The translations under genes were made by a program, and so were the position numbers. This document shows positions 13,874 to 44,836 of a DNA stretch of 64,000 nucleotides, piece after piece; positions within the stretch are counted from its first letter, which is position 1, and each line of letters starts with the position of its first letter. The notes under the pieces are model-generated. The model had not been told where the DNA came from and searched no databases. It saw nothing but the letters and a program-made list of their open reading frames with translations. This stretch comes from Leifsonia sp. 466MF. GTDB taxonomy: Bacteria > Actinomycetota > Actinomycetes > Actinomycetales > Microbacteriaceae. Location: assembly GCF_900100265.1 (NCBI RefSeq), contig NZ_LT629696.1:2976001-3040000 (forward strand), given 5' to 3'.

Positions 13874-14404
13874 TCACATGGCGAGCATCGCGACGAGCAT
13901 CCCGCCGCACACAGCGGCCGATACGACGGTATGCAGGCGGCGCACCCGGCGAGCCAGCACCAGGCGGCCGATCAGCCAGCCAGCCACCGCGATGGCGACG
14001 AGCGCCGGGCCGACCGGGCCGCCGACGGACGGGTCCAGGTGTCGGTGCGGGGACGCGACAGCCGAGCCCACGACACCAGCCGGAACGGGAGCAGCCGAGA
14101 AGGCAATCCCCACCATGACGAGGAGCATGGCCCAGAGGTCGACCACATGCTCGCGCGCGAACGGGGATCGGCGGGCGATCCGCCCGTAGCCGCAGGCGAG
14201 CATGGCGAGTGCGACAGCGCCCGCGCAGAGCGCCGCCGCGTTCCCGGCGGCGCAGGCGAGCGCCATCACCCCGGCCGCGGGCAGCTCGTGCACGAGGGTG
14301 CCCGCCGTCCGGTGCGCGCGCCCGCGACGGCGCACCGCGGCACCGGCGGTGGATGCGGTCGCGACCGCCCCCGCCGCCGGCGCCACGGCCGCCCCCATGG
14401 TCAT
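13874..14404 (-). CDS. Small integral membrane protein of unknown function
   Basis: A 176-residue Ala-rich protein with four likely membrane segments (around residues 42-72, 88-113, 131-150 and 156-175). I do not recognise a family. The region around residues 118-128 (SPHRHLDP) contains closely spaced His residues that could bind metal, but this is only a guess. ATG 14404 overlaps the TGA of the aldehyde dehydrogenase by 4 bp, which supports translation as the last gene of the long minus-strand operon. An Arg-rich patch follows helix 3. The strong Ala bias lowers confidence. Confidence 0.55.
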   Translation of the reverse strand: MTMGAAVAPAAGAVATASTAGAAVRRRGRAHRTAGTLVHELPAAGVMALACAAGNAAALCAGAVALAMLACGYGRIARRSPFAREHVVDLWAMLLVMVGIAFSAAPVPAGVVGSAVASPHRHLDPSVGGPVGPALVAIAVAGWLIGRLVLARRVRRLHTVVSAAVCGGMLVAMLAM

Positions 14405-15777
14405 GCGCGCCAGACGGTCTTCACGTTGGTGAACTCGCGGATGCCGAACGCCGACAGCTCGCGCCCGTACCCGGAGTCCTTGATGCCGCCGAAGGGCAGC
14501 TGCGGGAAGGATGCGGTGAGCCCGTTGACGAAGACGCCGCCGGCCTCGATGCGGTCCTGGAAGAAGGCGGCCTCGTCATCGTCCTGCGTCCATACGCTGG
14601 AGCTCAGGCCGAAGTCCGAGTCGTTCGAGCGCTCGACGGCCTCCTCGGCCGACTCGACCCGGTACAGGCACGCGACCGGCCCGAAGCACTCCTCGCGGAA
14701 GATGCGCATCTCGGGGGTGACATCCCGCAGCACCGTCGCCGGGTAGAACCAGCCGGGGCCGTCCGGCAGCTCGCCTCCGGCTAGGAGGGTCGCACCCTTG
14801 GCGACGGCGTCCTCGACCAGCTCGTGGGTGTCGCGACGCACCTGCTCGGTGGCCAGCGGGCCGAACGACGTTCCCTCGTCGAACGGGTCGCCGACGACCT
14901 GCGCGCGCATCCCCGCGACGAAGGCCTCCTCGAACGCATCGTAGACGTCCGCGTGGACGTAGTACCGCTTGGCGGCGATGCAGCTCTGACCCGAGTTCTG
15001 CACGCGCGCGTTCACCCCGGCTGCGGCCGCCGCTGCGATGTCGGCCGACGGCATCACGACGAACACGTCCGTGCCGCCGAGCTCCAGCACCGACTTCTTG
15101 ATGTTGCGTCCCGCCGCCTCCGCCACAGACGATCCCGCCCCGACCGAACCGGTGAGCGTGACCGCTCGGATGCGGCGGTCGTCGATCAGAGGCGCCACCG
15201 CGCCGCCCTCCACGAGGACGGTCTGGAACGCTCCGGCCGGGAACCCGGCCCGCTCGAACAGCGAACCGAGGTAGAGCGCGCTCTGCGGAACGCTGGAGGC
15301 GTGCTTCAGGATGCCGGTGTTGCCGGCCATGAGCGCGGGGGCCGCGAACCGGATCACCTGCCAGAACGGGTAGTTCCACGGCATGACCGCCAGCACCGTC
15401 CCGATCGGCTGGTAGCGGACGCTCACCGCCGAGGCGCCGACGTCGCCCGCCGCGACCGGTCGCTCTTCGGCGAGGTACTCCGCGGCGTGGTCCGCGTACC
15501 AGCGCATGCCGCGCGCCGACTTCGACACCTCGTACTTCGCCGTCCCGATGGTCTTGCCCATCTCCGTCGTGACGAGCGCGGCGACCTCGTCGAGCTCGGC
15601 GTCGAGGAGGTCGGCGGCGGCGCGCATCCACGCGCCCCGCTGCTCGAACGTCGTGTCCGCGAGCCCGCGGTAGGCGGCCTCGGCCGCGGCGAGGATCTCC
15701 TCCAGCTGCTCGGCCGTGTGCGGCTCGAACGTCTTGAGCGTCTCGCCGGTGGTGGGGTTGATGGTGGCGATGGCCAT
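14401..15777 (-). CDS. Aldehyde dehydrogenase, succinate-semialdehyde type
   Basis: A 458-residue ALDH similar in layout to NAD(P)-dependent succinate-semialdehyde dehydrogenases. Motifs are VMPWNYPFWQVIRFAAPAL, TLTGSVGAGSSVA, LELGGTDVFVV (base Glu), SGQSCIAAKR (nucleophile Cys) and the C-terminal FGGIKDSGYGREL. The start is ATG 15777 with AAAGGAG six nt upstream, 43 bp after the kinase gene. A copper amine oxidase is encoded earlier in the same direction, so this enzyme may oxidise the aldehyde that it produces. This is inference from context. Confidence 0.88.
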   Translation of the reverse strand: MAIATINPTTGETLKTFEPHTAEQLEEILAAAEAAYRGLADTTFEQRGAWMRAAADLLDAELDEVAALVTTEMGKTIGTAKYEVSKSARGMRWYADHAAEYLAEERPVAAGDVGASAVSVRYQPIGTVLAVMPWNYPFWQVIRFAAPALMAGNTGILKHASSVPQSALYLGSLFERAGFPAGAFQTVLVEGGAVAPLIDDRRIRAVTLTGSVGAGSSVAEAAGRNIKKSVLELGGTDVFVVMPSADIAAAAAAGVNARVQNSGQSCIAAKRYYVHADVYDAFEEAFVAGMRAQVVGDPFDEGTSFGPLATEQVRRDTHELVEDAVAKGATLLAGGELPDGPGWFYPATVLRDVTPEMRIFREECFGPVACLYRVESAEEAVERSNDSDFGLSSSVWTQDDDEAAFFQDRIEAGGVFVNGLTASFPQLPFGGIKDSGYGRELSAFGIREFTNVKTVWRA

Positions 15778-15820
15778 GGTGACTCCTTTGTTGTGACGGC
15801 CGATGGGATGCGCGCGCGGC

Positions 15821-16732
15821 TCACACCGCGATGCGCCTGGCCAGCTCGACGGCGCCGGCGACCGGTGCGTCCGCGAGCGGCACGACGGTGAGTCCGGGAT
15901 GCGCGGCCGCGACCGCCCCGGAGAAGGCCGCAAGCAGCCGCGGCTGGTGGGCGAACACACTGCCGCCCACCACGATGTGCGACCCGGCGGCGCCCCGGGC
16001 GATCAGGCGGCCGATCAGCGCAGCGAGCTCGGAGGCGGCCCGGTCGATGACGGAGACGGCGAGGGCGGAGCCGCCGTCCGCCGCCGCGAAGACGGCGACG
16101 GCGCGCGGCCCCCAGTTCTCCGGTGTCGGGTCGTCGTTGACGGCGCGGGCGAGTGCCGGCGCGGACGACACCCCAAACGCGCGCTCCAGAGCGGCGAGGA
16201 GGCCGTCGTCCGGTGCGCCGTCATCGTCGGCGCGGAGAGCGGCGATGGTGGCATCGCGGACGATGGCGGGCGCACCGCCCTCGTCGCCGATCACCCATCC
16301 CCAGCCGCCGGCGAACAGGGTCCGGCCGGACGCATCCGCGCCGACGGCGATGGAGCCCGTGCCGGCGATCACGCCGATGCCCTCCCGCAGGCCCGCGGCC
16401 GGGACGAGCAGCTCGGCGTCGTTCACGACAGCCGCGCGGTAGCCCAGCTCGCCGAGGGCGGCGCGGAGCTCACGGGCGTGCTCGACGGTGTCGAGTCCCT
16501 GAGCGCCGACGCCGAGAGCGGAGACGGTCGCACCCTCGGGCAGCACGTGCCGGATGCGGGCGTGCAGCCACCGAGCGGCGCCGCCTGCCGGGGATGCGCT
16601 CCATTCATCCGCCGGCAGGGCGACGTCGGCGACGCGTGAGCCGTCGAGGGTCTCAGCACGCACGCCGAGCTTGGTGCCACCGGCATCCAAGCCCACGATC
16701 AAAGGGGAAATAAGAGGGGATGCAGCCGTCAC
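15821..16732 (-). CDS. BadF/BadG-type sugar kinase (N-acetylglucosamine/glucosamine kinase-like)
   Basis: A 303-residue ASKHA-fold ATPase. Phosphate-1 motif is GLDAGGTKLGV (residues 14-24), phosphate-2 is IAGTGSIAVG (about 122-131), and a Gly-rich adenosine segment HIVVGGSVFA lies near 265. This group includes eukaryotic-type N-acetylglucosamine kinase and the glucosamine-specific kinase GspK of Vibrio. The start is GTG 16732, overlapping the SIS-gene stop by 4 bp. Together with the SIS protein it suggests phosphorylation and processing of an amino sugar. Activity on another hexose cannot be excluded. Confidence 0.8.
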   Translation of the reverse strand: MTAASPLISPLIVGLDAGGTKLGVRAETLDGSRVADVALPADEWSASPAGGAARWLHARIRHVLPEGATVSALGVGAQGLDTVEHARELRAALGELGYRAAVVNDAELLVPAAGLREGIGVIAGTGSIAVGADASGRTLFAGGWGWVIGDEGGAPAIVRDATIAALRADDDGAPDDGLLAALERAFGVSSAPALARAVNDDPTPENWGPRAVAVFAAADGGSALAVSVIDRAASELAALIGRLIARGAAGSHIVVGGSVFAHQPRLLAAFSGAVAAAHPGLTVVPLADAPVAGAVELARRIAV

Positions 16733-17748
16733 GCGGCGCCCCCCGCATCCACCGACACCTTGGTGTCCGCGTTGTGGAACACGAACTCCTCGATGTCCAC
16801 ACCCCGCACCTCGGCCACGGCGCCGACGAGGATCTGCATCACCAGCGCCTCGAGCACCGCGCGCTGGGCGGCGGGAAGTTTGGGCAGGCGCACCGGGTGC
16901 AGGGTGCTCGTCGCAGCAATGGACTCGGCCGAGATGAGCACGACGTGGTGGCCGGCGTCCGCCAGCGTCGTCGCCAGATCGAGTTCCCGGCTGTCGCCGA
17001 AGACCACGTGCACCCCGTCGCCCGCCGACTCCATCGAGCCGTGCAGGTACTGCCGCGTGCTCATCCCGGTCGCCGGGATGCGGGCCACCTCACGGAACAG
17101 CAGCGCACCCGCCTCGGCCGATCCGACCGCCGGTCCCGCGCCGACGAAATCGCTCGACGAGACCGTCGCGAACAGTTCGGCGAGCGCCGAGACCGGAGCA
17201 GTCAGTCGATCCTCCACCTCGGCGAACGTCTCGGCCAGCCGCGCCCATCCTGCATCGGGCGTCCCGCCGTCCCAGACATCGGCGAGCAGCCCGAGCGCCG
17301 CGACGGTCGCCGTGTACCCCAGGGTCGAGGCGTAGCTGTCGGCCAGGTTGCCGAGCGACAACGTCGAGGCGATGCGCCCGATCGGCGACGGCTCGCTGTT
17401 CACGACCGCGAAGCGCAGCTCCTCCGGCACCGACTCGAGCACCGCCAAGGTCTCGGCGCTGCGGCCGCTCTGCGAGATCCCGACGATGGGATGCACGCTC
17501 GGCGGGAACGGCACGGGGTAGTCCCCAGCGCCGAGGCGCAACGAGTGGATGCCGCGCGAGCGCAGCTCCCAGACCGGCGCGCACGCCGCGGCGAGGCTCG
17601 CGCCGATCCCGACGAAGATCGGGCCGGGTCCCGCGAGCTGGCCGAGCGCCGAGCGCGCTTCGACCTGATCGGCGATCAGCGGGATCGCCCGGCCGAGCTC
17701 CTCCGCCTGCGTCGCCCGCGCGGACGCGTACGTGATGTACCCCTTCAT
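16729..17748 (-). CDS. SIS-domain phosphosugar isomerase/deaminase-like protein
   Basis: A 339-residue protein with two SIS (sugar isomerase) domains, like the isomerase half of GlmS and the AgaS/FrlB group of aminosugar- or fructoselysine-phosphate enzymes. The phosphosugar-binding signature is VGISQSGRSAET (about residues 88-99). The second domain carries REVARIPATGMSTRQYLHGSME, where GMSTRQYLHG resembles the conserved E-x-x-H-G segment of the family. ATG 17748 overlaps the upstream stop. It is directly upstream of the BadF kinase, so a sugar phosphate made by that kinase may be its substrate. Confidence 0.83.
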   Translation of the reverse strand: MKGYITYASARATQAEELGRAIPLIADQVEARSALGQLAGPGPIFVGIGASLAAACAPVWELRSRGIHSLRLGAGDYPVPFPPSVHPIVGISQSGRSAETLAVLESVPEELRFAVVNSEPSPIGRIASTLSLGNLADSYASTLGYTATVAALGLLADVWDGGTPDAGWARLAETFAEVEDRLTAPVSALAELFATVSSSDFVGAGPAVGSAEAGALLFREVARIPATGMSTRQYLHGSMESAGDGVHVVFGDSRELDLATTLADAGHHVVLISAESIAATSTLHPVRLPKLPAAQRAVLEALVMQILVGAVAEVRGVDIEEFVFHNADTKVSVDAGGAA

Positions 17749-18905
17749 CGGAGTCCCCCTGACTGTGCTGGGCTGGTTGCTCGCGAGCCGGTTGCTGCCG
17801 AGCTGGATGGTGTGGTCGCTGCGCTCGGGTCCCAGTCGGGCGGGAGCGGCTCGACGGGCGGCGCCGTGCTGTCGATGGCGACGGGCACGCCGGAGCGCGC
17901 CGACTCCTCGACCGCGAGCATGACCTCGAGCGCGTGGAACGCGAGCGGGCCGGACGCGCGCGGAGGCCGGCCGTCGCGCAGGGCGCGGGCAAACTCCAGC
18001 ACGCCGACACCGCGTTCCCGGTGGGCTCCGGGCGCGGGGACCTCGCTCCAGGCGTGGTCGCGGTCGTCGCCGGCGAGCACCCGCGTCGGTCCGTCGAAGC
18101 CGCTGACCGGCACCTCGAGCACGCCCTCCGATCCGGTGATCTCGAACGCCTGCCGCCGCCGTGGCGAGTCGAAGCTGTACACGGAGGTGCCGACCACACC
18201 GGAGGCGAACCGCGTCAGCACGCTGAGATGTGTGTCGACCTCGACGGGGAACCGCAGACCCGCGTCCGGTCCTGACCCGACGACGCGTTCGGCGCGCGGA
18301 CGCTGGCCCATCGCCTCCACTTGGACGATCGGGCCGAGCAGCTGGATCATCGTGCTGACGTAGTACGGGCCGATGTCGAACAGCGGACCGGCGCCCCGGG
18401 CGAACAGGAACTGCGGCCGCGGGTGCCAGGCATCCGGTCCGGGGCCTTGCATGAGGGTGAGCAGCGTCCTGGGCTCTCCGACCGCACCGTCGAGCAGCAG
18501 CCGCTGCGCGTTCTGGATGCCCTCGCCGAGGATCGTGTCCGGCGCGTTGGCTACGACGACGCCGGCCTCCTGCGCTGCGTCGAGCACCGCGCGGGCCGAC
18601 GCCAGGTCGAGCGTGAGGGGCTTCTCGCCCCAGACGTGCTTGCCCGCCGCGATGGCGGCGAGCGCGACGTCGGCGTGGGCGGCCGGAATGGTCAGGTTGA
18701 CGACGATCTCGATGTCGTCGCGTGCCAGCAGGTCGGCGACGGTGGGCGCGGCCTCCACGCCGTACCGGTCGGCCTGCGCCGCGGCGCGCTCCACGTCGAG
18801 ATCGGCGATCGCGACCACCCGCACGTCCGGGTACGTCGCGAGCGAGCGCAGGTACTCGTCCGAGATGTTTCCTGCGCCGACGATCCCGACGCCGGTGGCG
18901 GTCAT
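17745..18905 (-). CDS. Gfo/Idh/MocA family oxidoreductase
   Basis: A 386-residue NAD(P)-dependent sugar dehydrogenase. The Rossmann start is GVGIVGAGNISDEYL, the EKP motif is HVWGEKPLTLDLASA and the catalytic region DIGPYYVSTMIQLLGP gives the Asp/Tyr pair of the family. It is somewhat longer than average, with a low-complexity Ser/Ala/Thr tail of about 20 residues. ATG 18905 overlaps the stop of the TIM-barrel gene by 4 bp. In characterised systems Gfo enzymes next to TIM-barrel isomerases oxidise a ring carbon of a glycoside or inositol; that is the likely role here. Confidence 0.85.
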   Translation of the reverse strand: MTATGVGIVGAGNISDEYLRSLATYPDVRVVAIADLDVERAAAQADRYGVEAAPTVADLLARDDIEIVVNLTIPAAHADVALAAIAAGKHVWGEKPLTLDLASARAVLDAAQEAGVVVANAPDTILGEGIQNAQRLLLDGAVGEPRTLLTLMQGPGPDAWHPRPQFLFARGAGPLFDIGPYYVSTMIQLLGPIVQVEAMGQRPRAERVVGSGPDAGLRFPVEVDTHLSVLTRFASGVVGTSVYSFDSPRRRQAFEITGSEGVLEVPVSGFDGPTRVLAGDDRDHAWSEVPAPGAHRERGVGVLEFARALRDGRPPRASGPLAFHALEVMLAVEESARSGVPVAIDSTAPPVEPLPPDWDPSAATTPSSSAATGSRATSPAQSGGLR

Positions 18906-19618
18906 GCGTCCACCGCCCGCGGGAGGCGCTCGGCGAAGAACGCGGCGTTGCGCTCGACGAGCGGGAACACATCCCCCTCGTGCACGACCACCTCGACCAC
19001 CGGTAGCTCCAGCGATCGGGCGGCGGCGATGGCCGCGGTGACGTCGAACGGGTTGGTGCCGTCCTCCTTGACGTGCAGGAAGCGCACCCGGTCGCCGAGT
19101 CTCGGGATGAGGCCGAGCACGTCCTCGCCGCCGACCGCCGCCCAATAGGTGTCGAGCTCCAGCACGACAGCGGGGTCGAGCGCGTCGACCAGCACGTCAT
19201 AGGCCGTCCGGCCGTCGACCGACTGCGAGAACTCGAAGTCGTGGTTGTGGTACCCGATGCGGATGCCGCGTTCGGCCGCCACCGGAACCACCGCATTGAT
19301 CGCGTCGGCGAGGGCCAGCACGCCGTCGCGGTCGGCGATGCTCACCGGCGGCACGAAGGGGACGATGACGGTCTCGATGCCGAGGCTCTCCGCCGCATCG
19401 AGCACGGCGTCGCGGTCGAGCTCCGTGATCTTGGCGTGCGCGGTCGACGCGATGAGACCCGTGGCGGCGAGCGCGGCGCGCAGCCCCGCGGTGTCGCTCA
19501 GGATGTCGTACGGCTCCACTTGGGTGAAGCCGTAGCCCGCCAGGCGTTCGAGAGTGCCCTCGAGCCGGCCCGGGCCGATGTCCTCGCGGACGCTGTACAG
19601 CTGGATTCCGAGACTCAC
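18902..19618 (-). CDS. Sugar phosphate isomerase/epimerase-like TIM barrel (AP endonuclease family 2)
   Basis: A 238-residue xylose-isomerase-like TIM barrel. Metal ligands expected for the fold are visible in GIRIGYHNHDFEF, VLELDTYWA and VRFLHVKED. The start is GTG 19618 in a GTGA overlap with the amine oxidase stop. Relatives include inosose dehydratase, 3-keto-sugar epimerases such as YcjR, and subunits of C-deglycosidases, all of which act on products of Gfo-type dehydrogenases. A paralogue lies at 31189. Substrate unknown. Confidence 0.83.
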   Translation of the reverse strand: MSLGIQLYSVREDIGPGRLEGTLERLAGYGFTQVEPYDILSDTAGLRAALAATGLIASTAHAKITELDRDAVLDAAESLGIETVIVPFVPPVSIADRDGVLALADAINAVVPVAAERGIRIGYHNHDFEFSQSVDGRTAYDVLVDALDPAVVLELDTYWAAVGGEDVLGLIPRLGDRVRFLHVKEDGTNPFDVTAAIAAARSLELPVVEVVVHEGDVFPLVERNAAFFAERLPRAVDA

Positions 19619-21639
19619 GCGCCGTGCCCTCCGTGATCGTGCGTGTGCGCATCCGCGTGGCCGTCGCCGTGCCCGTGATGACCGGGCGCGCAGTGGTCGC
19701 CGACCGACTCCGGGATGTCGAGGGTCGGGTTGGCGCCGAAGAACCCGTGCGGCTTGAGCACGAACCCCGCCGAGTCGACCGGCATCACCGGCCAATCCTC
19801 GATGCGCGGGAAGTGCGTCAGCCCGAAGGTGTGCCAGAGCACGATGTCGGCGTTGTCGACGTCGCGGTCCGCGGCCGTCCACTTCGGGAGGCCGGCGCCG
19901 CCCCGGTGCATGTTGACGAAGTCGCCCGCCGGGTACAGCTCGGCGGGTTCGTAGGGCGTGACCCACAGGTGCTTGGCCGAGTAGGTGGCGCGCTGGTGGA
20001 TGTCGGAGAGCTCGTCGGCCAGCAGGGCGGGTTTCCCCTCCGGGTAGAGCACGTACCCGACGGCGCCGCCGAGCCGGTTCCTCCTGCCCGGGTTCGAGAC
20101 GAGCCAGACCCGGTTCTTCGCGTTGTCCGCCATCCGCTGCGCCTCCTTCTCCGTGCGCAGCCGGGTGACCGTCTGGGTGATGCCGGTACCGGTCGGGTTC
20201 TCCGGCCCGCGCGGGACGAGCACCGCCTCCAGCTCGTCGACCGCGTTCTCCACGCCGTCGACCATCATGTCGAGACGCGCCGAGAAGAGGTGCTGGTGAT
20301 ACGGCGCCCCGAGGCCGGGAGCGAGCTCCGACGCGTAGGCGTAGCCCGGGCCCGGGTACGCGGAGGTGAACACGACGCCGGTGGCCTTCACCTCCAGCTC
20401 GATGTTGCCGTCGAGCGAGAAGTACCAGTAGAAGCCGTAGTCATAGTTGCCCACGGTCACGAAGAAGCTGACCACCAGCCGGCGGTTGCGGCGGGAGTCG
20501 CTCGAGCCGTTCCAGTTGTCGAAGTGCTTCCAGAGGATCCCGGCGTCCTCCTCGTGGATGCAGATCGCCTGGGGGATGACGCGCACGTTCCCGGCGTTGT
20601 CGGCCAGGGTCGCATCCAGATAGGTGATGTCTCCGACGCAGTCGCAGCCGAGCTCCAGCGAGTTCGCGAAGCCGCCCAGCAGGTACTCGCCGCAGTCGAA
20701 GAAGTTCTGGAACCAGCGCTGCGGGCTCGGGTCGCCGTAGGGCACCATCATCTCGGCGATGGATGCGCGGTAGAGCACCGGGCGCTGCACTCCGTCGTCC
20801 GCGATGGACACGTTGTGGAAGACCAGCCCCTCGCGCTGGTCGAACGACACCTGCAGCTTCCAGCCCAGCCACGACAGGACGCCGTTCTCGTCGATGGTGA
20901 AGCTCGGACCGTCCGGCTGGCTGATCTCGATCGGCTTGAGGCCTGCGCGCTCGGGCTTCCCCACCCACTCCGGGAGGTGGAAGTTGCCGTCCTCCTGCGG
21001 CACGGGCAGCTCGACGTAGTCGATCACGTCGAGCACCTCGCGGGTCACGACGTCCACCATCACCGTCACGCCGTCGACGGGATGCGCCCAGCCGAGGTCG
21101 TCCGGCGTCTTCTGCACGAAGGTGAAGCAGCGCTGGATGCGTCGGCCGGCCTCGTCGGTCGCCGGAGCGCCGGCCGAGAGCGGGTTCACGCGCAGTGTCG
21201 AGATGTCGGTGAGGCCGCGCTTCGCCATGGCCGCGAGCCAGCGCTCGTCCTGGTGGACGATCTCCTCGACGAGCCCGAACTCGGCCAGGACCACCGGAAC
21301 CTGGCCGTCTGCCGGGTCGAGCTCCACCACCGACACGAGGCGGTCCTCCGCCGGGCAGACGACGGCGTCGTGGGACGCTCCCGTGGCGAAGTCCACCAGC
21401 ATCGCGCGGAACCGGCGGGCCTCCGGCCGGGACCCCGGGGCGAGCAGAGTGCGCTTGTCCTGCTCGAGCAGGCCGAAATAGGACACATGTCCGTCAGGCC
21501 CGAGCAGCCCCTCCCGCTCGAGGATCGCCCGCGAGGCGGCGACCTCCTCCGGCCGGAGGCTCGCCAGGGCGGCCGCGATGGCGGCGTCGGCCTCCGGGTC
21601 CGCGTACGGTGCGGTAGGCGCTTGGGCGGTTTCGGTCAC
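19615..21639 (-). CDS. Copper amine oxidase (primary-amine oxidase, topaquinone)
   Basis: A 674-residue copper/topaquinone amine oxidase converting a primary amine, O2 and water to aldehyde, ammonia and H2O2. The cofactor Tyr is in VTVGNYDYGF (about residue 399). The catalytic Asp is in FFDCGEYLLGG (about 315), and copper ligands are in YHQHLFSARLDM and LTHFPRIEDWPVMPV. The last 25 residues form a His/Asp/Gly-rich tail (HGHGDGHADAHTHDHGGHG) likely to hold metal. No signal peptide is seen. GTG 21639 follows the GntR stop by one base. An amine oxidase inside a sugar-type operon is unusual and suggests an amine-bearing substrate. Confidence 0.9.
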   Translation of the reverse strand: MTETAQAPTAPYADPEADAAIAAALASLRPEEVAASRAILEREGLLGPDGHVSYFGLLEQDKRTLLAPGSRPEARRFRAMLVDFATGASHDAVVCPAEDRLVSVVELDPADGQVPVVLAEFGLVEEIVHQDERWLAAMAKRGLTDISTLRVNPLSAGAPATDEAGRRIQRCFTFVQKTPDDLGWAHPVDGVTVMVDVVTREVLDVIDYVELPVPQEDGNFHLPEWVGKPERAGLKPIEISQPDGPSFTIDENGVLSWLGWKLQVSFDQREGLVFHNVSIADDGVQRPVLYRASIAEMMVPYGDPSPQRWFQNFFDCGEYLLGGFANSLELGCDCVGDITYLDATLADNAGNVRVIPQAICIHEEDAGILWKHFDNWNGSSDSRRNRRLVVSFFVTVGNYDYGFYWYFSLDGNIELEVKATGVVFTSAYPGPGYAYASELAPGLGAPYHQHLFSARLDMMVDGVENAVDELEAVLVPRGPENPTGTGITQTVTRLRTEKEAQRMADNAKNRVWLVSNPGRRNRLGGAVGYVLYPEGKPALLADELSDIHQRATYSAKHLWVTPYEPAELYPAGDFVNMHRGGAGLPKWTAADRDVDNADIVLWHTFGLTHFPRIEDWPVMPVDSAGFVLKPHGFFGANPTLDIPESVGDHCAPGHHGHGDGHADAHTHDHGGHGA

Positions 21640-23482: not shown

Positions 23483-23579
23483 ATAGTAGCCATGTGGTAC
23501 GCCATTGGTCTATACCGAAACCCGTGATAGACCAGAAACAAAATACCTCTTGCTACCTCTATGGACCGCTATGTATGCT
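23483..23579. promoter_or_regulatory. Divergent promoters with GntR/HutC-type operator
   Basis: TGGTCTAT (23506-23513) and ATAGACCA (23527-23534) form an inverted repeat. The first half extends to TGGTCTATACC, close to the TGGTCTAGACCA sites bound by DasR/NagR-type GntR proteins. For the plus-strand binding protein TTGCTA (23550-23555) and TATGCT (23574-23579) are 18 nt apart. On the minus strand TACTAT (23483-23488) is a -10 box whose -35 would fall in the operator. A further TGGTAC lies at 23495. Confidence 0.65.
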
Positions 23580-25294: not shown

Positions 25295-25300
25295 CCCCTC

Positions 25301-25334
25301 GGCGCGGGACGGCGGTCACCCGTCGTCCCGCGCC
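25301..25334 (+). terminator. GC-rich hairpin after the family-5 binding protein
   Basis: Arms 25301-25314 and 25321-25334 pair over 14 bp with one mismatch and a 6-nt loop, starting 6 bp after the stop codon. It precedes the permease gene of the same operon, so partial termination or message stabilisation is likelier than full termination. Confidence 0.6.
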
Positions 25335-25355
25335 CCGACCCGGCGGGACCACCTC

Positions 25356-26339: not shown

Positions 26340-26347
26340 GAGTCCTC

Positions 26348-30202: not shown

Positions 30203-30214
30203 TCATACCACTCG

Positions 30215-37639: not shown

Positions 37640-37645
37640 GTCAGC

Positions 37646-38620
37646 TCAGCTCTCTCGTGTGCGGGGGTCGAGGAAGACGTACATGAGGTCGGCGAGGAGG
37701 TTCGCGACCAGGACGGTGATCGTGATCACCAGGAAGATGCCCTGCATGAGCGGGTAGTCCTGGGCCTGCGCCGCCTTGAACAGCACCGTGCCGATCCCGG
37801 GGTAGTTGAAGACGACCTCGGTCACGATCGAGCCGCCCACCACGAAACCGAGCGACATCGCGAAGCTCGAGAACGACGGGAGGATGGCGTTGCGCGCCGC
37901 GTAGCTGAACATCACGCGCCGCTTCGGGAGGCCCTTCGCCTCCGCCAGCCGGACGTAGTCCTCGCTGAGGGTCGTGACCATCATGTTGCGCATCCCGATC
38001 AGCCAGCCGCCGATCGAGGCGACGACGATGGTGAGCGCCGGGAGGACCGCGTAGTACGTGGCGCTGCCGATGAAGCCCAGGTTCCAGCCGATCGTCTCGG
38101 TCACCGAATAGCCCCCGGAGAGCGGGAACCAGTGCAGGACGATCGAGAAGATCAGGACGACGCAGATCGCGAACCAGAAGTACGGGATGCTCGACAGCAG
38201 TGTCGTGAACGGGATGAGGCCGTCCAGCCACGAGCCCCGCTTCCAGCCCACGATCATTCCGAGCCCGGTTCCGATGAGGAAGCCGAGCACCGTGCACACC
38301 GTGATGAGCACGAGCGTCCAGCCGATGCTGCTCGCCAGCACGTCCGACACCGGGGTCGGATAGTACGCGTACGACGTGCCGAAATTGCCCGTGAACAGGT
38401 TCTTCCAGTAGTCGAGATACTGCTGCCACAGGCTCGCGTCGCTCTGGCCGAACAGCACGCGGAGCGCTTGGATGGCGTCCGGCGACAGCTTGCCGTGGAA
38501 CTTGGCGATCAGCGCGTCGGCCGGACTTCCCGGCATGATGCGCGGGAGCAGGAAGTTGAGGCTGATCGCCGCCCAGGCGGTGATCAGGTAGAAGACGGCT
38601 CGTCTCAGGAGCACTCTCAT
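37646..38620 (-). CDS. ABC transporter permease, DppB-like
   Basis: A 324-residue permease with N-terminal helix VFYLITAWAAISLNFLLPR, the PGSPADALIAK segment, about six helices and contact loop EDYVRLAEAKGLPKRRVMF. It ends VFLDPRTRES. It resembles the permease at 25356 throughout (shared YYPTP and GWxRGSWxD segments). ATG 38620 overlaps the ThuA stop by 4 bp. It pairs with the permease half of the fused protein 7 bp downstream. Confidence 0.88.
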   Translation of the reverse strand: MRVLLRRAVFYLITAWAAISLNFLLPRIMPGSPADALIAKFHGKLSPDAIQALRVLFGQSDASLWQQYLDYWKNLFTGNFGTSYAYYPTPVSDVLASSIGWTLVLITVCTVLGFLIGTGLGMIVGWKRGSWLDGLIPFTTLLSSIPYFWFAICVVLIFSIVLHWFPLSGGYSVTETIGWNLGFIGSATYYAVLPALTIVVASIGGWLIGMRNMMVTTLSEDYVRLAEAKGLPKRRVMFSYAARNAILPSFSSFAMSLGFVVGGSIVTEVVFNYPGIGTVLFKAAQAQDYPLMQGIFLVITITVLVANLLADLMYVFLDPRTRES

Positions 38621-39321
38621 GGGCGGTCGGTGTCCTCCGCGTCGATCGGGCGGGTGGTGGGTGCGGCCTCTGCGGCCGTCCGTGCGGGCTGGGCGAGCCA
38701 GCGCGCCGCGTTCGTGACGAGCCGGCGGACCTCCGTCGACCCCCAGGCCCGCAGGTCGTGGCCGAACTGCAGGTAGCAGACGCGTCCGCGTCCGTAGGCG
38801 TGCGCGGTCACCAGCGGCTCGCGCCCGTACGGGGCATCGCGCCAAGCCAGCACATCCACGCCCGGCTCGACGGCGAGGCGGTAGTGCTCGTGCTCCAGCT
38901 CGAACGGTTCGACGCCCTCCGTCACCGGATGCGGCGCCAGGCCGACGGCGAACCGGGACTCGTGGGGGCGCGGACCGTGGTCGAGGTACCGCGCGCCGAT
39001 CACCGGCACGAGCGCGTCGTCCTCGAGGTACGCCGTGGAGTGGACGGCGAGCAGTCCTGCGCCGCCGGCCACCGCGCGCACGAGTCCCCGGCGGGCGTCG
39101 TCGTCGAGCTCGCCGGCGGCGCGATAGAGGGCGATGACGTCGTCCGGCGCGTGCGGGCCGGATGCGGAAGCCGGTTCGCGCAGCGACCCCGCGCCGATGC
39201 GCACGCGAGTGGCGAGACCTTCGTCGGCCAGCATCGCCTGGAGCTCGACGCCCGCGCCGAAGAGGTCTTCGTAGACGTCGTCGCCCACGAGCATGACCGT
39301 CGCCGTTCCCATCCGCGTCAC
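38617..39321 (-). CDS. ThuA-like domain protein
   Basis: A 234-residue ThuA-fold protein. GTG 39321 is chosen because it overlaps the Gfo stop as GTGA and because the first 15 residues then align gap-free with the paralogue at 31980 (VTR...LVGDD against MTR...VNGDD). Further shared segments are GLLAVHSTAYLED and the C-terminal GRVCYLQFGHDLRAW. Its C-terminal 20 residues are low-complexity. It is second in the operon, after a Gfo dehydrogenase, the pairing seen for ThuA/ThuB in trehalose oxidation. Confidence 0.82.
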   Translation of the reverse strand: MTRMGTATVMLVGDDVYEDLFGAGVELQAMLADEGLATRVRIGAGSLREPASASGPHAPDDVIALYRAAGELDDDARRGLVRAVAGGAGLLAVHSTAYLEDDALVPVIGARYLDHGPRPHESRFAVGLAPHPVTEGVEPFELEHEHYRLAVEPGVDVLAWRDAPYGREPLVTAHAYGRGRVCYLQFGHDLRAWGSTEVRRLVTNAARWLAQPARTAAEAAPTTRPIDAEDTDRP

Positions 39322-40397
39322 CACGTCGACCGCAGTTCGCCCACCGGCGACCACAGTCCCTCGTCGAGCCCGCTGAGCAGGGCGTTGTCGTACACCCGGA
39401 GCGGCAGCCCGACGCGGCCCCGCGACCGGCTGCTCTCGTAGGTCGCGAAGACGATGGCCGCGCCGGCGAGAGCGTGGCGCGCGGCCAGAACCGGCTCCTC
39501 GCCGGTCTGCAGGCCGTCGACCAGATCGGCGACGGCCTCGCGGGTGCAGGCGAAGATGGCCGGATCGATCCCGTGGTCCCAGGTCGACGGATCGCTCGCG
39601 TACGGGGACGCGAAGCGCATGCCGTCGACCCCGAACCGCTGGACGATGCACTCCTGGCCGTTCACGACGATCCTGCCGCGGCTGCCCTGCAGGATCAGCC
39701 CGAGGTTGTTCTCGCGGTTCAGGATGGGCGTGGCCGGCTCACGACCGGTCGCGATGGTCGCGCGGACGCCGTCGGACCAGGCGACCTGCGTCAGCGACGA
39801 CGTCTCCACGAACGCGCCGTAGACGTAGCGGTTGGTGCTGACATCGATCTGTCCGAGCACCCACTCGGCCGGCTCGTCGTGCCGGTAGAACAGCGCGAGG
39901 TCGACGATGTGGCTGCCCCAGTCGAAGAGGTTCGGGCAGTAGCCCTCGATGCTGACCAGCTCGCCGATGGCGCCGTCGTCGAGCTGGGCCCGGGCGAAGC
40001 GGTGCACCGGCTCGAACCGGCGCTGCAGATTGACGGTCAGCTTGACGCCTGCATCGGCCGCACGCTCGGTCATCGCGACGGCATCGCCATAGCTGAGCGC
40101 GAAGGGCTTCTCGCAGTGGATGGCGCGGACACCCGCGTCGATCGCCGCGTCGACCACGGCGCGGCGGAAGGCGGGAGGCGTGCACACGCTCACGATGTCC
40201 GGTCGCTCCTCGCGCAGCATCGCCGAGACGTCGGAGTAGCTCCGCGGAATTCCGAGTTCGGTCGCGAGCCGGTCGGCCGCGCCGCTGTCGACATCGGCGA
40301 CCCCGACGAGTCGCACCCGCTCGTCGGCCTGGTAGGCGGCGGCGTGGACCCGGCCCTGCCCACCGGCGGCGACGACGACCGCAGAGTACGTCTGCAT
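39318..40397 (-). CDS. Gfo/Idh/MocA family oxidoreductase
   Basis: A 359-residue dehydrogenase and first gene of the second large operon. N-terminus YSAVVVAAGGQGRVHAAAYQ has a variant Gly-rich loop (AAGGQG). The EKP motif is AIHCEKPFALSYGDA, and the catalytic region is NLFDWGSHIVDLALF with Asp and His. ATG 40397 is chosen with GGAG six to seven nt upstream; ATG 40409 is the alternative. It probably oxidises the imported glycoside or a product of it. It is divergent from the MDR dehydrogenase at 40618. Confidence 0.86.
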   Translation of the reverse strand: MQTYSAVVVAAGGQGRVHAAAYQADERVRLVGVADVDSGAADRLATELGIPRSYSDVSAMLREERPDIVSVCTPPAFRRAVVDAAIDAGVRAIHCEKPFALSYGDAVAMTERAADAGVKLTVNLQRRFEPVHRFARAQLDDGAIGELVSIEGYCPNLFDWGSHIVDLALFYRHDEPAEWVLGQIDVSTNRYVYGAFVETSSLTQVAWSDGVRATIATGREPATPILNRENNLGLILQGSRGRIVVNGQECIVQRFGVDGMRFASPYASDPSTWDHGIDPAIFACTREAVADLVDGLQTGEEPVLAARHALAGAAIVFATYESSRSRGRVGLPLRVYDNALLSGLDEGLWSPVGELRSTW

Positions 40398-40449
40398 GTG
40401 CTTCTCCATTGAACTTCTCGGGTGCCGAATCGGCTGCGGGGTGGACCCG

Positions 40450-40472: not shown

Positions 40473-40605
40473 CCAATGCCAGACTAAGACAGAATGTGAG
40501 CGGTAACAAGAGATGGTTTCTTCGTTTACGCGGTCGAAACAATGTGTGACCGGTTTTCATCGACCCGAGCGCGCATCCACATAAGACCACAACGGACCAC
40601 CGCGC

Positions 40606-40611: not shown

Positions 40612-40617
40612 GCTCGC

Positions 40618-41568
40618 ATGCTGATCAGCCGTGTCGTCGCCGCCCGCACCTCCCGCATCGAGGAGGCCCCCACTCCGGAGCCGCACCCCGGCCAGGTGCT
40701 CGTCGAAATCGTCGCCAGCGGCGTGTGCACTTCCGACCTCTCCCCATGGCTGCGGGGACCGGGAGACGGCGGCGAGCCCATCGAGCTGGGGCACGAGATC
40801 TCCGGCCGCGTCGTCGCCGTGGGATCCTCCGCGTCGCGCTGGAAGGAGGGCGAGTTCGTGACCGGCCTCGGCGGCCCCGGCTTCGCGACCCACGCCCTCC
40901 TGGAGGAGGACCTGCTCCTTCCCGTCCCCGCCGGGATCGAGCCGGCTCACGCCATCGGAGAGCCGATCGCGACACTCGAGGAGGCGATCTCCCGCACCCC
41001 GCTCAGCCCCGGCGCCCGCGTGGCGATCGTCGGACTGGGATTCATGGGTCTCGGGCTGCTGCAGCTCGCGCTGGCCCGAGCACCGCGCACCGTCATCGCC
41101 GTCGACCCCAACCCGGAGGCGCGGGAGCGCGCACTCGCCCTCGGCGCCGCGGTCGCCCTGCACCCGGACGAGGTCGCCGCATTCGTGGATGCCGCCGAGG
41201 GTGCCGGGACCGCCGACCCCCGCGCCGACGTCGTGCTGGAGGCGACCGGGGTGACGCCGGGACTCGCCACCGCATCCCTGCTGGTCCGGCCCTTCGGCAC
41301 CCTGTGCGTCGTCGGATACCACCACGCGGGCACCGCCCCCTTCGACATGGAGCTCTGGTACAAGGGCGCGACGGTGGTCAACGGCTTCTGCCCGGACCAT
41401 CCGCGCGTCATGCGGGCGATGCGGGATGCCCTGGCGCAGGTCGCCTCGCGCGGGTTCACCTTCGCGCCGCTGATCACGCATCGCTTCGCGCTCGACGGGG
41501 TGGATGCGGCCTACGAGCTGATGGCCCAGCGTGCCTCCGGATTCGTGAAGGCCGTCATCGAGCCGTGA
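40618..41568 (+). CDS. Zinc-type alcohol/polyol dehydrogenase (MDR family)
   Basis: A 316-residue medium-chain dehydrogenase. The catalytic zinc ligands fit Cys in ASGVCTSDLSPW and His-Glu in ELGHEISGRVVAVG; the Rossmann motif is VAIVGLGFMGLGLLQLA. The four-Cys structural zinc lobe is absent and the protein is shorter than the usual 340-350 residues. It is divergent from the Gfo-led operon with 220 bp between. Relatives oxidise polyols or sugar alcohols, which would fit the neighbourhood, but no specific substrate is supported. Confidence 0.82.
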   Translation: MLISRVVAARTSRIEEAPTPEPHPGQVLVEIVASGVCTSDLSPWLRGPGDGGEPIELGHEISGRVVAVGSSASRWKEGEFVTGLGGPGFATHALLEEDLLLPVPAGIEPAHAIGEPIATLEEAISRTPLSPGARVAIVGLGFMGLGLLQLALARAPRTVIAVDPNPEARERALALGAAVALHPDEVAAFVDAAEGAGTADPRADVVLEATGVTPGLATASLLVRPFGTLCVVGYHHAGTAPFDMELWYKGATVVNGFCPDHPRVMRAMRDALAQVASRGFTFAPLITHRFALDGVDAAYELMAQRASGFVKAVIEP

Positions 41569-41607: not shown

Positions 41608-41655
41608 TTTACCAATCGCGCACCAAAGCTATACATTCCCGGGTAACCGCTTTCC
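41608..41655 (+). promoter_or_regulatory. Promoter and LacI-type operator of the APC permease gene
   Basis: TTTACC (41608-41613) and TATACA (41630-41635) are 16 nt apart. GGTAACCGCTTTCC at 41642-41655 differs in one base from the operator core GGTAAGCGCTTTCC at 671-688 and lies at the expected transcription start. This links the gene to the regulon at the left end of the window. Confidence 0.55.
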
Positions 41656-41677
41656 GGCTTCGACGAAGGGCACACCC

Positions 41678-43069
41678 GTGACCACCACCTCCCGACCCTC
41701 GAGCACCGCCGCTCCCGCCGGTCCGCGACTGAAGCGTAGCCTGGGCACGCCGTCCCTCCTGCTCTTCGGCCTGGCCTACATGCTGCCGCTCGCCGTCTTC
41801 ACCACCTACGGTCTCGTCACCGAGACCACCGGCGGCCACCTCGCCGGCGCCTACTTCGTCACGACGATCGCGATGCTGTTCACCGCCGGCAGCTACGCCA
41901 GCATGGTGCGGGCCTACCCCGTCGCCGGGTCCGCCTACACGTACACGCAGCGCACCTTCGGCCGCCATCTCGGCTTCCTGACCGGGTGGACGCTGCTCCT
42001 CGACTACCTCGCCCTCCCCCTGCTCAACTACCTCGTCATCGGCATCTACCTCAATGCGGCCTTCCCCGCGGTTCCGGCGTGGGTGTGGGTGGTCGGATCG
42101 GTGGTCGTCGTCACCCTGCTGAACGTGATCGGCATCACCCTGGTGTCGAGCGCCAACCTGGCGCTCGTCGGAGTCCAGATCGTCTTCATCGTCGTCTTCG
42201 TGGCCACCGGGATCGCGTACCTCTCGGGCGGGGCGACCGTCCCGAACCTGCTCGACCCGTTCTTCTCGGGCAACACGACGCTGGGCGGAATCGCCGCTGG
42301 CGCCGCCATCCTGGCGCTCGCGTTCCTCGGCTTCGACGCCGTCTCGACCCTCAGCGAGGAGGCGAAGGACGCCAGGAAGAGCATCCCACGCGCGATCATC
42401 CTGTGCACCCTGGTCGGCGGCCTGCTCTTCATCGTCACCGCCTACGTCGCCGGGTTGGTCTTCCCCGACTTCACGAACTTCACCGACACCGACTCCGCTC
42501 CGCTCGACGTGATGACGCGGATCGGCGGCGGAGCCCTGTTCACGTTCTTCACCGCCGCCTACATCGCCGGCAGCTTCGCCTCTGCGATGACATCGCAGGC
42601 CAGTGTCGCGCGCATCCTGTTCGCCATGGGCCGCGACGGCCAGCTGCCACGCCGCGTGTTCGCCGCCATCCACCCGCGCTTCAAGACGCCGTGGCTGTCG
42701 GTGCTCATCGTCGGCGTTGTCGGTCTCATCGGCGCACTGCTCCTGCCGCTGGACGTCGCCGCATCGGTGATCTCCTTCGGCGCGCTCGTCGCCTTCAGCT
42801 TCGTGAACCTCGCCGTGATCAAGCACTACCTGATCGACCAGCACGAGCGGGGAACGCGTGCCGTGCTGGCGCACCTGGTGGCGCCGCTGATCGGTTTCGC
42901 CCTCACCGTCTGGCTCTGGACCAGCCTCTCCCTGACGACGTTCATCGCCGGCGGGATCTGGGTGCTGATCGGCGTCGTCCTGCTCGCGATCCTCACCTCC
43001 GGCTTCCGGCGCAAGCCGCCCGCGATGGACTTCTCGGAGGAGGACCCTGCACCTCTCCCGGAGGCCTGA
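41678..43069 (+). CDS. APC-superfamily amino-acid/polyamine permease
   Basis: A 463-residue transporter with about 12 helices. The first helix segment LGTPSLLLFGLAYMLPLAVF and SAYTYTQRTFGRHLGFLTGW resemble the putrescine importer PuuP group; the conserved loop SEEAKDARKSIPRAI follows helix 6. The start is GTG 41678 with GAAGGG seven nt upstream. It could bring in an amine for the copper amine oxidase encoded 20 kb away, but its operator ties it instead to the left-end regulon, so the partner is uncertain. It ends 24 bp from the convergent GH9 gene. Confidence 0.87.
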   Translation: MTTTSRPSSTAAPAGPRLKRSLGTPSLLLFGLAYMLPLAVFTTYGLVTETTGGHLAGAYFVTTIAMLFTAGSYASMVRAYPVAGSAYTYTQRTFGRHLGFLTGWTLLLDYLALPLLNYLVIGIYLNAAFPAVPAWVWVVGSVVVVTLLNVIGITLVSSANLALVGVQIVFIVVFVATGIAYLSGGATVPNLLDPFFSGNTTLGGIAAGAAILALAFLGFDAVSTLSEEAKDARKSIPRAIILCTLVGGLLFIVTAYVAGLVFPDFTNFTDTDSAPLDVMTRIGGGALFTFFTAAYIAGSFASAMTSQASVARILFAMGRDGQLPRRVFAAIHPRFKTPWLSVLIVGVVGLIGALLLPLDVAASVISFGALVAFSFVNLAVIKHYLIDQHERGTRAVLAHLVAPLIGFALTVWLWTSLSLTTFIAGGIWVLIGVVLLAILTSGFRRKPPAMDFSEEDPAPLPEA

Positions 43070-43093
43070 GGGCCACGTCTTCCGGTCGGCTGC

Positions 43094-44836
43094 TCAGCCG
43101 GCGCAGACGGCGAGGAGGAACCAGCCGGAGTGCGGGATCCACTGCTCGGCCCACCGCCACTCCTCCCCGTCCGGCGCGTCGGCGGGGAGGAAGGCGACGC
43201 CTTCCTCGTCCGTCCAGCCGGAGGTGATGCCGTTGACGATGCCTCCCGGGGTGTTCTGATACACCGCGGAGTACTCCACTCCGTTCCTCCCGCGGCCCTG
43301 GAGCATGCACGAGTCGAACGGGTTGAGGCCGCCGACCCAGGCGATCACGTCGGCATTCAGCCGGCGGAGGCGGGCCCGGAGCCGCTCGTCGATCTGCGGC
43401 AGACGCGCCGCCACGGCTGCGGCATAGGCGAAGGACGCGAGCCCGGCGTTCTCGCCCTGCCACCAGTACCCGGTCTCGTTCTCGTGCGGGAAGAAGAACG
43501 CGTCGCGCGGTTCCGCTCCGATGGGCTGGACGCGCTGCCGCGGGTAGCCGAACGGATTGGGCACGGCATCCGTGCGCCGCAGCACTCCCGTGAGGATGGC
43601 GAGCGCGGTGCGTTCCGCGGCGTCGGCTGCGGCCGCGTCCGTGTCCGTGCCCGCTGCCGAGCCCTGCCTGAGCACCTCGGCCCAGCGCAGCAGTGCCACA
43701 ACGGGCAGGCCGGCCTCGGCCGCATGGAAGTAGGGCCGCCCCTCCACGTCGCCCACCAGCCATGCCCCGGTCTCGCCGTCGCGAAGTCGCTGTGCGATGG
43801 ACTCTGCGCGGCGCGCCCCCGCCGCAGCGAATGCCTGTCGTTCCACCCCGGTACCGCCGGTGGCTGCCAGCAGTTCCGCGGCGGCGAGCAGCGCGCAATA
43901 GTCGTCGATGATCGACTCCTCGCCGTCGAAGAGATAGTCGCGGTTGTGCTGCTCCAGATGCTCGAAGCCGCGCACCGCCGCGGCGAAGTACTCCTCGCGA
44001 CGGAAATCGCCCTCGTCGTCGGCGCACGAGGCGAGAGCGAGCGCGGCGATCGCGAGGCCCCCTCCCTGGCGGTACGCCGCCTGCCACCGCTGGGTGCGGA
44101 CGCTGTCCTGGAGCGGCGCCGTGATCACGCGCTCCTCCAGCCGCTTCGTCAGCGCGTCGAAGACGGCCGTGTAGAAGAAGCCGCTCGGATCCTGGAAGCG
44201 CACCAGGAAGTCGGCGCCGAACAGGCCTTCGTCATGGAGCCGCGGATACTGACTCGTCCGGAAGCCCGGATGCGCCGTGCGCAGCTCCCGGCCCGCGGTC
44301 AGCAGTGCCCAGGCACAGAGCGGGATCTGCTGCGGACTCATCATCCGGGTGTAGGTGAGATGGCTGAGGAACTTGCTGTAGTCACCGGATGCGTCGAGCC
44401 AGCCGCCGCGTGCATCCACCGTGCGGCCGGAGTCGTCGTCGTAGAAGCGCGCTGCGGCATCCTTGCGATCGATCTCCCCGCTCGACCGCTGCGCGCGGAA
44501 CATCGCCGTGATGTCGGACACGACGAGGCTCGGGATGCGGTCCTCCGCGATGACGAACGGCGCCGACGCGACCCCGCCCTCGCCGGTGTCGGCGACGAGC
44601 CGATAGCGACCGGGCGTCGTGATCGACGAGAAGTCCGCGCGGGCGTAGGGCCGTGCCGACCACCGGGAGACGCGCTGCGGTGAGTCGACGGCGACGGACA
44701 CGGTGTCGCTGTCGTCGAGTCGCTCGATCCGAAGGCGCGGAGCGACATCGAACCCGACGAGCACGGCGGCCTTCGGCGCTCCCGTGTCGTAGCCGAGATG
44801 GCTCACGAGGATCGCGGGTTGGTCGACCGTCTGCAT
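43094..44836 (-). CDS. Glycoside hydrolase family 9, cytoplasmic
   Basis: A 580-residue enzyme with an N-terminal Ig-like cellulase domain (about 1-100) and a GH9 (alpha/alpha)6 catalytic domain. The catalytic Asp region is DARGGWLDASGDYSKF (about 141-156). AWVGGLNPFDSCM matches the family's GxNP segment, and the C-terminal EEWRWAEQWIPHSGW would hold the acid Glu. There is no signal peptide, so it acts on imported oligosaccharides, like cytoplasmic GH9 beta-glucosidases and exo-beta-glucosaminidases. ATG 44836 has GGAGG four nt upstream. TGGTAT repeats in its promoter link it to the family-5 transporter operon. Confidence 0.85.
   Translation of the reverse strand: MQTVDQPAILVSHLGYDTGAPKAAVLVGFDVAPRLRIERLDDSDTVSVAVDSPQRVSRWSARPYARADFSSITTPGRYRLVADTGEGGVASAPFVIAEDRIPSLVVSDITAMFRAQRSSGEIDRKDAAARFYDDDSGRTVDARGGWLDASGDYSKFLSHLTYTRMMSPQQIPLCAWALLTAGRELRTAHPGFRTSQYPRLHDEGLFGADFLVRFQDPSGFFYTAVFDALTKRLEERVITAPLQDSVRTQRWQAAYRQGGGLAIAALALASCADDEGDFRREEYFAAAVRGFEHLEQHNRDYLFDGEESIIDDYCALLAAAELLAATGGTGVERQAFAAAGARRAESIAQRLRDGETGAWLVGDVEGRPYFHAAEAGLPVVALLRWAEVLRQGSAAGTDTDAAAADAAERTALAILTGVLRRTDAVPNPFGYPRQRVQPIGAEPRDAFFFPHENETGYWWQGENAGLASFAYAAAVAARLPQIDERLRARLRRLNADVIAWVGGLNPFDSCMLQGRGRNGVEYSAVYQNTPGGIVNGITSGWTDEEGVAFLPADAPDGEEWRWAEQWIPHSGWFLLAVCAG

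Follow-up and report, generated by a model that had tools for sequence, protein, structure and literature searches.

We analyzed a window of 64,000 nucleotides from Leifsonia sp. 466MF (contig NZ_LT629696.1, positions 2,976,001 to 3,040,000; the genome comprises 4.14 Mb in one contig) and found that the 27 genes at window positions 13874–44836 form one conserved unit linked by a shared motif. It is a real possibility, though a tentative one, that the products of this block import glycosides containing an amino sugar and that the amino sugar released is converted to fructose-6-phosphate by a kinase of the BadF type together with a SIS protein resembling GlmS and NagB-II. Genes were called by codon usage, with approximate starts, and domains were assigned by Pfam and NCBIfam scans. 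Operon A, on the minus strand, runs 5΄ to 3΄ from a Gfo oxidoreductase (g22) through a GntR regulator (g21), a copper amine oxidase (CuAO; g20), a TIM-barrel protein (g19), a Gfo dehydrogenase (g18), the SIS protein (g17), the kinase (g16) and an aldehyde dehydrogenase (ALDH; g15) to a membrane protein (g14); a family-5 ATP-binding cassette (ABC) importer (g23–g27) is divergent from it. Next along the window come a GntR gene (g28) and operon B, which comprises a Gfo dehydrogenase (g37), a ThuA protein (g36), a second importer (g35–g32), another ThuA protein (g31), a TIM-barrel protein (g30) and a short-chain dehydrogenase/reductase (SDR; g29); beyond it lie an alcohol dehydrogenase (ADH; g38), an APC permease (g39) and a GH9 glycosidase (g40). 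An earlier, sequence-only reading had listed two importers, three Gfo, two TIM-barrel and two ThuA proteins, an epimerase-type SDR, and SIS, BadF, CuAO, ALDH and GH9 proteins, each of which was confirmed by the gene calls and domain scans; the two GntR-UTRA regulators, the zinc-type ADH, the APC permease, a permease-ATPase fusion and the small membrane protein were absent from that list. Its statement that the genes are mostly joined by 4-bp overlaps was about half right (five of eight junctions in g14–g22, two of four in g23–g27 and four of eight in g29–g37).

The order of the block is common to eight other Leifsonia genomes, complete or with a part missing. The SIS protein g17 (E up to 1e-70), the CuAO orthologue (at least 86% identity) and the GH9 protein (E up to 1e-60) occurred in the same 9 of 28 Leifsonia genomes, in which non-orthologous CuAOs were at most 54% identical to g20. 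Two genes would fall on the same 9 of 28 genomes with a chance of 1.4e-7 if the genomes were independent; yet they share ancestry. The operon B markers g30 (orthologues at least 77% identical) and g36 were found in eight of the nine block-bearing genomes, and weaker relatives of g30 (33–40%) in nearly all 28. Gene order was identical in all block-bearing genomes, bar a few inserted genes. The block is thus one unit in Leifsonia, with conservation far above chance. As a separate observation, G002 and G016 (loci L081–L086) carry two additional genes (476 and 541–551 amino acids) between the GH9 and APC permease genes and a gene pair (442–448 and 482–483 amino acids) between g28 and the importer.

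Searching with the SIS protein yielded 39 named loci, including those of Leifsonia aquatica, L. virtsii, L. poae and Leifsonia sp. Root227; some are close kin (three Agromyces, two Asanoa), and L033 and L035 come from one genome. The SIS gene was accompanied by a BadF kinase in 39/39 (a separate 44% copy in L034), CuAO in 36/39, g22 in 34/39, ALDH in 19/39 and GH9 in 7/39. Where CuAO was missed, L033 starts at a contig end and L051 has CuAO just upstream together with an APC permease and GH9; the Kutzneria genome of L049 has no CuAO at E up to 1e-100. Outside Leifsonia two architectures were seen: either the operons are fused, or a compact core of Gfo, CuAO, SIS and kinase genes stands with a different sugar importer. 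The two types are mutually exclusive, as 17 loci have a CUT1 importer without g18/g19 and 18 have g18 and g19, which travel together, without a CUT1 importer (Fisher 4e-7, uncorrected for ancestry); L058 combines the two, and L033, L046 and L049 lack them both. Genes g29–g31 were in the stretch read of 12 of the 19 loci bearing g18/g19, mostly in a head-to-tail arrangement with operon A. The compact type is found on a plasmid of Sinorhizobium (B11), where the g22, SIS and kinase proteins are 73, 53 and 54% identical to those of the window; next to them lie an ALDH (43%), a copper-chaperone-domain protein and a CuAO of another kind (45% over 525 residues). The nearest solved relatives of the substrate-binding protein (SBP) of compact loci are general oligosaccharide binders, which give no clue to the substrate. 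In Pseudolysinimonas kribbensis (L059:10001-10989) the SIS gene is broken by stops or a frameshift, reflecting decay or sequencing error.

Reduced forms were found in a sample of 297 genomes of the order, three of which, one being the window genome, contain the GH9 subfamily (E up to 1e-80). The other two have SIS and kinase homologues nearby, 43–50% identical to the cluster members: G245 shows importer-GH9-SIS-kinase, and G309 shows GH20, GH9, ThuA, TIM, SDR, SIS, kinase and ADH genes, with no CuAO or Gfo recognized in the 30 and 40 kb read, respectively. The common end therefore appears to consist of kinase and SIS, with GH9, ThuA/TIM/SDR, Gfo/TIM and CuAO/Gfo as modules that would feed it. 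The GH20 gene of G309 (L106:13125-14726) lies one gene away from GH9, a further link to hexosamine oligosaccharides. In the order sample g17 (1/297) and g30 (2/297) were too rare for a test of their co-occurrence, few candidates per genome having been scored for either, and relatives of g18 (81/297) were too common to be informative. A phylum sample contained g22 in 1 of 396 genomes. More distant g22 relatives (40–45%) belong to other sugar loci on plasmids of Chloroflexota and Bacteroidota; FAD oxidoreductase and SIS genes accompany two of them, whereas a CuAO is annotated in none. Separately, SIS and BadF kinase genes like g17 and g16 are paired on proteobacterial plasmids (L061, L062, L063 and L064), with other kinds of transporters and mostly ROK-type regulators; this pair is an uncharacterized two-gene pathway.

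The promoters of the block are connected by a direct repeat, GGTA-N6-GGTA. The element GAGGTAGCAAGAGGTATT upstream of g22, from which this repeat is reduced, is kept (at least 13 of 18 bases) in 25 of the 33 named loci with a readable upstream stretch, and the remaining eight match at 9–12 of 18 bases. Four exact matches to the repeat were found in the window, compared with 0.12 expected, and none of 100 shuffles reached four. All lie on the minus strand: GGTAGCAAGAGGTA (23544–23557) in the divergent g22/g23 promoter of operon A and its importer, GGTAACGAGTGGTA (30206–30219) upstream of g28, with a 5-base overlap with the end of g29, and two overlapping copies, GGTACTCCTTGGTA and GGTATCGTGTGGTA (44853–44876), upstream of g40. 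Because matches with one mismatch (26 versus 8.2 expected) are scattered over genes too, only exact sites were used. In the nine Leifsonia genomes all 23 exact sites were intergenic by midpoint (g22/g23 in nine genomes, g28 in five and g40 in five). The 39 named loci, which include five from the same Leifsonia genomes, had 30 exact sites, 28 of them intergenic; intergenic sequence makes up 57,789 of 749,504 bases there. The g22 promoter accounted for 22 of these 28 and the GH9-importer promoter of Agromyces for three; single sites lay between g22 and g20 (L027), between GH9 and ThuA (L046) and at the operon B promoter (L049), and 15 of the 39 loci, including 8 of 9 from Streptomyces and Actinacidiphila, had no intergenic exact site. 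A weight matrix built from the 25 sites kept upstream of g22 scored a weaker plus-strand copy in the g37/g38 promoter of operon B (40499–40518) as second best in the window, at 18.1 bits, compared with a maximum of 12.5 bits in 20 Markov windows. The regulators g21 (21641–22414, minus; PF00392 and PF07702) and g28 (29393–30088, minus; GntR-UTRA by the same scans) are predicted to control the block through these repeats.

Other candidates for a shared signal were considered. The DasR-type operator TGGTCTAGACCA had no exact site and four sites with up to two mismatches (1.15 expected), one in the g22/g23 promoter, and was dropped for the direct repeat. Inverted repeats were present as two pairs in the g22/g23 promoter and one before g40, with none in the other two promoters examined, and 9-mers shared among intergenic stretches of the window gave nothing useful. 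A palindrome-like sequence, TGGTCTATACCG (23506–23517, g22/g23 promoter), which we take to resemble the PhnF operator, has counterparts of related sequence at this position in 3 of 33 loci.

These results bear on the possibility that sugar, amine and chitosan loci lie side by side by chance. Modules have been lost separately (in G007 the whole stretch g29–g38 is missing, and in G011 both g39 and the first importer, g23–g27) and G245 has only the GH9-SIS-kinase part of the set, as such independence would predict; however, occurrence in the same genomes within the genus, fusion of the operons in other genera and the motif at several promoters largely refute this explanation, which we regard as very improbable. 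The earlier claim that operons A and B belong together is thus borne out by co-occurrence, fusion and the shared motif, and the comparison of gene order, in which the set was conserved across Leifsonia, found no independent distribution of the two operons.

The identity of the common end was examined through g16, g17 and g40. The kinase g16 (15821–16696, minus; PF01869) has a MurNAc/GlcNAc kinase, 8zo3, as its best PDB match. The SIS protein g17 (16729–17748, minus) scored 22.8 bits against a Pfam cut-off of 25 and was confirmed by profile and fold. It has the Glu/His pair as in NagB-II; against the NagB-II equivalog NF046059 it reached 33 bits, below the cut-off of 430. Lys330, considered as a possible equivalent of GlmS Lys603, lies close to it in the alignment but about three residues off by fold ranges, in a low-confidence tail. 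The glycosidase g40 (43094–44836, minus), a GH9 exo-β-glycosidase matching 6gdt, 3h7l and 5dgq at E about 1e-120, keeps the catalytic Asp pair and Glu with full-length homology to VC0615-type GH9; by eye its N-terminus has no signal-peptide-like features, in agreement with the intracellular location proposed earlier. Tyr148, Trp220 and Tyr232, which lie near C2 of the –1 sugar in VC0615, are F, L and missing in 19 of 19 copies; in PMC6096475 this is a positional feature that is not shown to set specificity. Taken together, the GH9, kinase and SIS proteins suggest that their common product is an amino sugar.

An alternative is that the locus degrades glycated amines (Amadori compounds): the kinase would phosphorylate a fructosyl-amine, the SIS protein would act as a deglycase releasing glucose-6-phosphate and a primary amine, and CuAO and ALDH, the classical pair for primary amine degradation, would burn the amine. 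Many of the 120 SIS matches listed are named FrlB-like (others GlmS-like), an APC permease adjoins CuAO, and compact loci resemble frl operons in having a sugar ABC importer, a repressor, SIS and a kinase, FrlONM being described in PMC12632257. However, the fold of g17 is 8 Z units closer to GlmS than to FrlB, and the scheme leaves no role for g22, 73% identical between phyla. Furthermore, g16 is a BadF protein and not of the PfkB type, to which the fructosamine kinase FrlD presumably belongs, and the GH9-SIS-kinase unit of G245, lacking CuAO, is hard to explain by deglycation. We therefore consider this alternative unlikely.

The CuAO g20 (19615–21639, minus; NF008559, 819.8 bits versus a cut-off of 651) has the topaquinone (TPQ) Tyr, the catalytic base Asp and all three copper His, so that the earlier claim of amine involvement stands on an intact enzyme. 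Among CuAO copies the Tyr and three His were present in 38/38 and the Asp in 37/38 (one gapped there); a copy from G718, added later, does not align at the third His and has a g39-type APC permease as its divergent neighbor. The CuAO likely helps to take the imported compounds apart, and would be an unusual enzyme in sugar breakdown. Gene g22 (22411–23451, minus) has as best PDB matches 6jw6 (E 1.9e-34) and 6nor (8e-30), which we take to be KanD2 and GenD2, respectively. One could speculate, and we would not put it above doubtful, that g20 is a cytoplasmic topaquinone sugar-amine oxidase that removes the amino group of an amino sugar after import, yielding ammonia and hydrogen peroxide, and that the carbonyl left behind is then made into a hydroxyl by the KanD2-like Gfo; in this way unusual amino sugars, e.g. 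6-amino, 2,6-diamino or 3-amino hexoses of natural-product conjugates, would be simplified to a standard sugar on which the kinase and SIS protein can act. Copper may be supplied by g14 (13874–14404, minus; no Pfam or NCBIfam match), a small His/Met-rich membrane protein in which Met47, Asp89-x-Trp-Ala-Met, His120 and Met173 are invariant in 12 aligned relatives following ALDH or kinase genes; such proteins are predicted copper-supply candidates. By a motif filter they were near CuAO in 19 of 39 named loci, and also beside two CuAOs elsewhere (further coordinates of the group: L097:8372-8929, L093:1369-1626 and L060:15390-16040); in Sinorhizobium a protein with a PpoB2 copper-chaperone domain occupies the g14 position.

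The amine may instead be on the aglycone. An amino-sugar or glucose glycoside of an amine-bearing alcohol or phenol would then be imported and cut by GH9 or Gfo/TIM, with the aglycone going to CuAO and ALDH and the sugar to the kinase and SIS protein. This is consistent with a CuAO-ALDH-APC set without sugar genes and with the activities of relatives: AtOGE, the relative of the TIM-barrel proteins, acts on an aryl glucoside (PMC10628242), and VC0615-type GH9 also acts as a β-glucosidase (PMC6096475). In contrast, the polar channel positions of g20 suit a sugar better than an aryl amine, and several compact loci (e.g. L036 and L045), whose other neighbors are only partly annotated, have no recognized glycoside-cutting gene near CuAO, SIS and kinase. 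Compact loci with CuAO and no recognized glycosidase favor the sugar or deglycation reading, and GH9-SIS-kinase loci without CuAO disfavor deglycation. An amine-bearing aglycone appears improbable, if very slightly less so than glycated amines.

The genes g18 (17745–18905, minus; PF01408 and PF22725) and g19 (18902–19618, minus; AP_endonuc_2, best PDB match 8bvk, AtOGE) encode, judging from their sequences, a putative glycoside 3-dehydrogenase and a putative eliminase that would together cleave 3-keto-glycosides, and g30 (31189–31983, minus; AP_endonuc_2, 8bvk E 5e-22) a putative eliminase or hydratase. His124, His126, Asp156 and His182 of g19 (20 sequences) and His135, His137, Asp167 and His193 of g30 (15 sequences) are conserved, with the spacing of the AtOGE metal and catalytic residues H132, H134, D163 and H189; a 3-keto-glycoside eliminase type, as proposed earlier, is accordingly suggested for both. 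The inositol/rhizopine (iol/moc) chemistry raised at the same time was rejected, as NCBIfam models scored far under their cut-offs (IolG at most 143.8 versus 355 bits and IolE at most 40.9 versus 290 bits).

All this is explained most economically by a pathway for amino-sugar conjugates that several modules would feed. The two importers, g23–g27 (SBP_bac_5 SBP, two permeases and two ATPases; 23669–29129, plus) and g32–g35 (SBP_bac_5 SBP, ATPase, permease-ATPase fusion at 35558–37639 and permease; 32719–38620, minus), would bring in a conjugate of di- or oligosaccharide size. Its linkage would be cut by the GH9 exo-glycosidase, or by C3 oxidation (g18) and β-elimination (g19) followed by hydration and reduction by g30, g29 (30215–31192, minus; extended SDR, epimerase/dehydrogenase, PF01370, YxxxK conserved) or g37 (39318–40409, minus; PF01408, first gene of operon B); the ThuA proteins would also take some part at this stage. 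The CuAO would convert a primary amine on the amino sugar into a carbonyl, which g22 might reduce or g15 (14401–15777, minus; AldH/succinate-semialdehyde type, NF042989, 913.9 bits versus a cut-off of 800) might oxidize, and g16 and g17 would phosphorylate and then deaminate or isomerize the sugar. This account has two weak points. The CuAO is its weakest step, in that the enzyme may act on a sugar, an amine aglycone or an amine freed by deglycation; and the motif link to operon B is the weakest of the block, with a g37/g38 site of at least 9 bits only in G014 and G012 among seven relatives with operon B and absent from the other five. The previously proposed redox cleavage of an amine-bearing sugar conjugate is partly supported: the amine and the Gfo/TIM type are upheld, but as the stretches read of G245 and G309 have GH9-SIS-kinase with neither a CuAO nor a Gfo gene, the redox and amine steps seem to be additions to the core rather than parts of it. 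The description as an undescribed catabolic locus stands, with the substrate class narrowed, short of a single compound.

The remaining genes of the block are two of the ThuA family (PF06283), g31 (31980–32648, minus) and g36 (38617–39294, minus), the zinc-type ADH g38 (40618–41568, plus; PF08240 and PF00107) and the APC permease g39 (41678–43069, plus; PF00324/PF13520). Window positions 1–2868 contain a Gfo gene, incomplete because the window begins within it, together with genes for an MFS transporter and a third ThuA protein. Eight named loci (L025, L026, L028, L043, L053, L055, L056 and L059) have relatives of this Gfo (72–89% identical) close to the core, followed in some by DUF993 and TIM-barrel genes, e.g. 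L025:18758-20778; this is another sugar locus travelling with the core block.

The open-licence literature searched yielded neither a description of such a set of genes nor a paper combining three of copper amine oxidase, Gfo, amino sugar and SIS domain. A modular regulon in which an amine oxidase is combined with glycoside cleavage of both the hydrolytic and the oxidative-eliminative kind would broaden the picture of amino-sugar breakdown in soil; if the copper enzyme acts on sugars, copper amine oxidases would gain a new reaction class, and actinobacteria a possible way of consuming natural products that contain amino sugars. Direct tests of the idea can build on the motif, on the residue signatures and on the gene losses that have occurred naturally.

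Among known systems, frl operons of E. coli and B. subtilis are the first comparison; FrlR, presumably a GntR-UTRA protein, has been compared with the GntR-type NagR. The Vibrio chitobiose cluster presumably has a BadF kinase and a family-5 SBP nearby. Like the block, frl operons combine a SIS protein, in frl the deglycase, with a kinase, a regulator and an ABC importer or permease (PMC12632257), and FrlC is a further point of similarity; the block differs in its BadF kinase and SIS protein nearer GlmS, and the frl stretch examined has no Gfo, CuAO or GH9. The Vibrionaceae cluster contains a homologous exo-acting GH9, the exo-glucosaminidase VC0615 (PMC6096475), from which the block is distinguished by the three changed or missing C2-pocket residues and by its SIS protein, CuAO and Gfo modules. 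The phenylethylamine oxidase of Arthrobacter globiformis (AGAO) is 54% identical to g20 and has the same TPQ, base and copper ligands, whereas g20 differs in channel and gate positions (A135N, L358N and Y296F) and lies among sugar genes. Among solved structures, g22 is nearest to enzymes of GenD2-GenS2/KanD2 aminoglycoside C3΄΄ oxidation-amination; GenS2-GenD2 run in reverse would convert a sugar amine into a hydroxyl (PMC4340712), but that system is biosynthetic and has a pyridoxal-phosphate aminotransferase in place of CuAO. Finally, the Agrobacterium GlycDH-AtOGE-AtHYD-Gfo operon for non-hydrolytic glycoside cleavage and the levoglucosan operon, as described in PMC10628242, combine Gfo dehydrogenases with two TIM-barrel proteins as the block does, and the HxH/Asp/His site of AtOGE (8BVK) is retained in g19 and g30; to this arrangement the block adds a CuAO, a SIS protein, a BadF kinase, a GH9 glycosidase, a ThuA pair and two family-5 importers.

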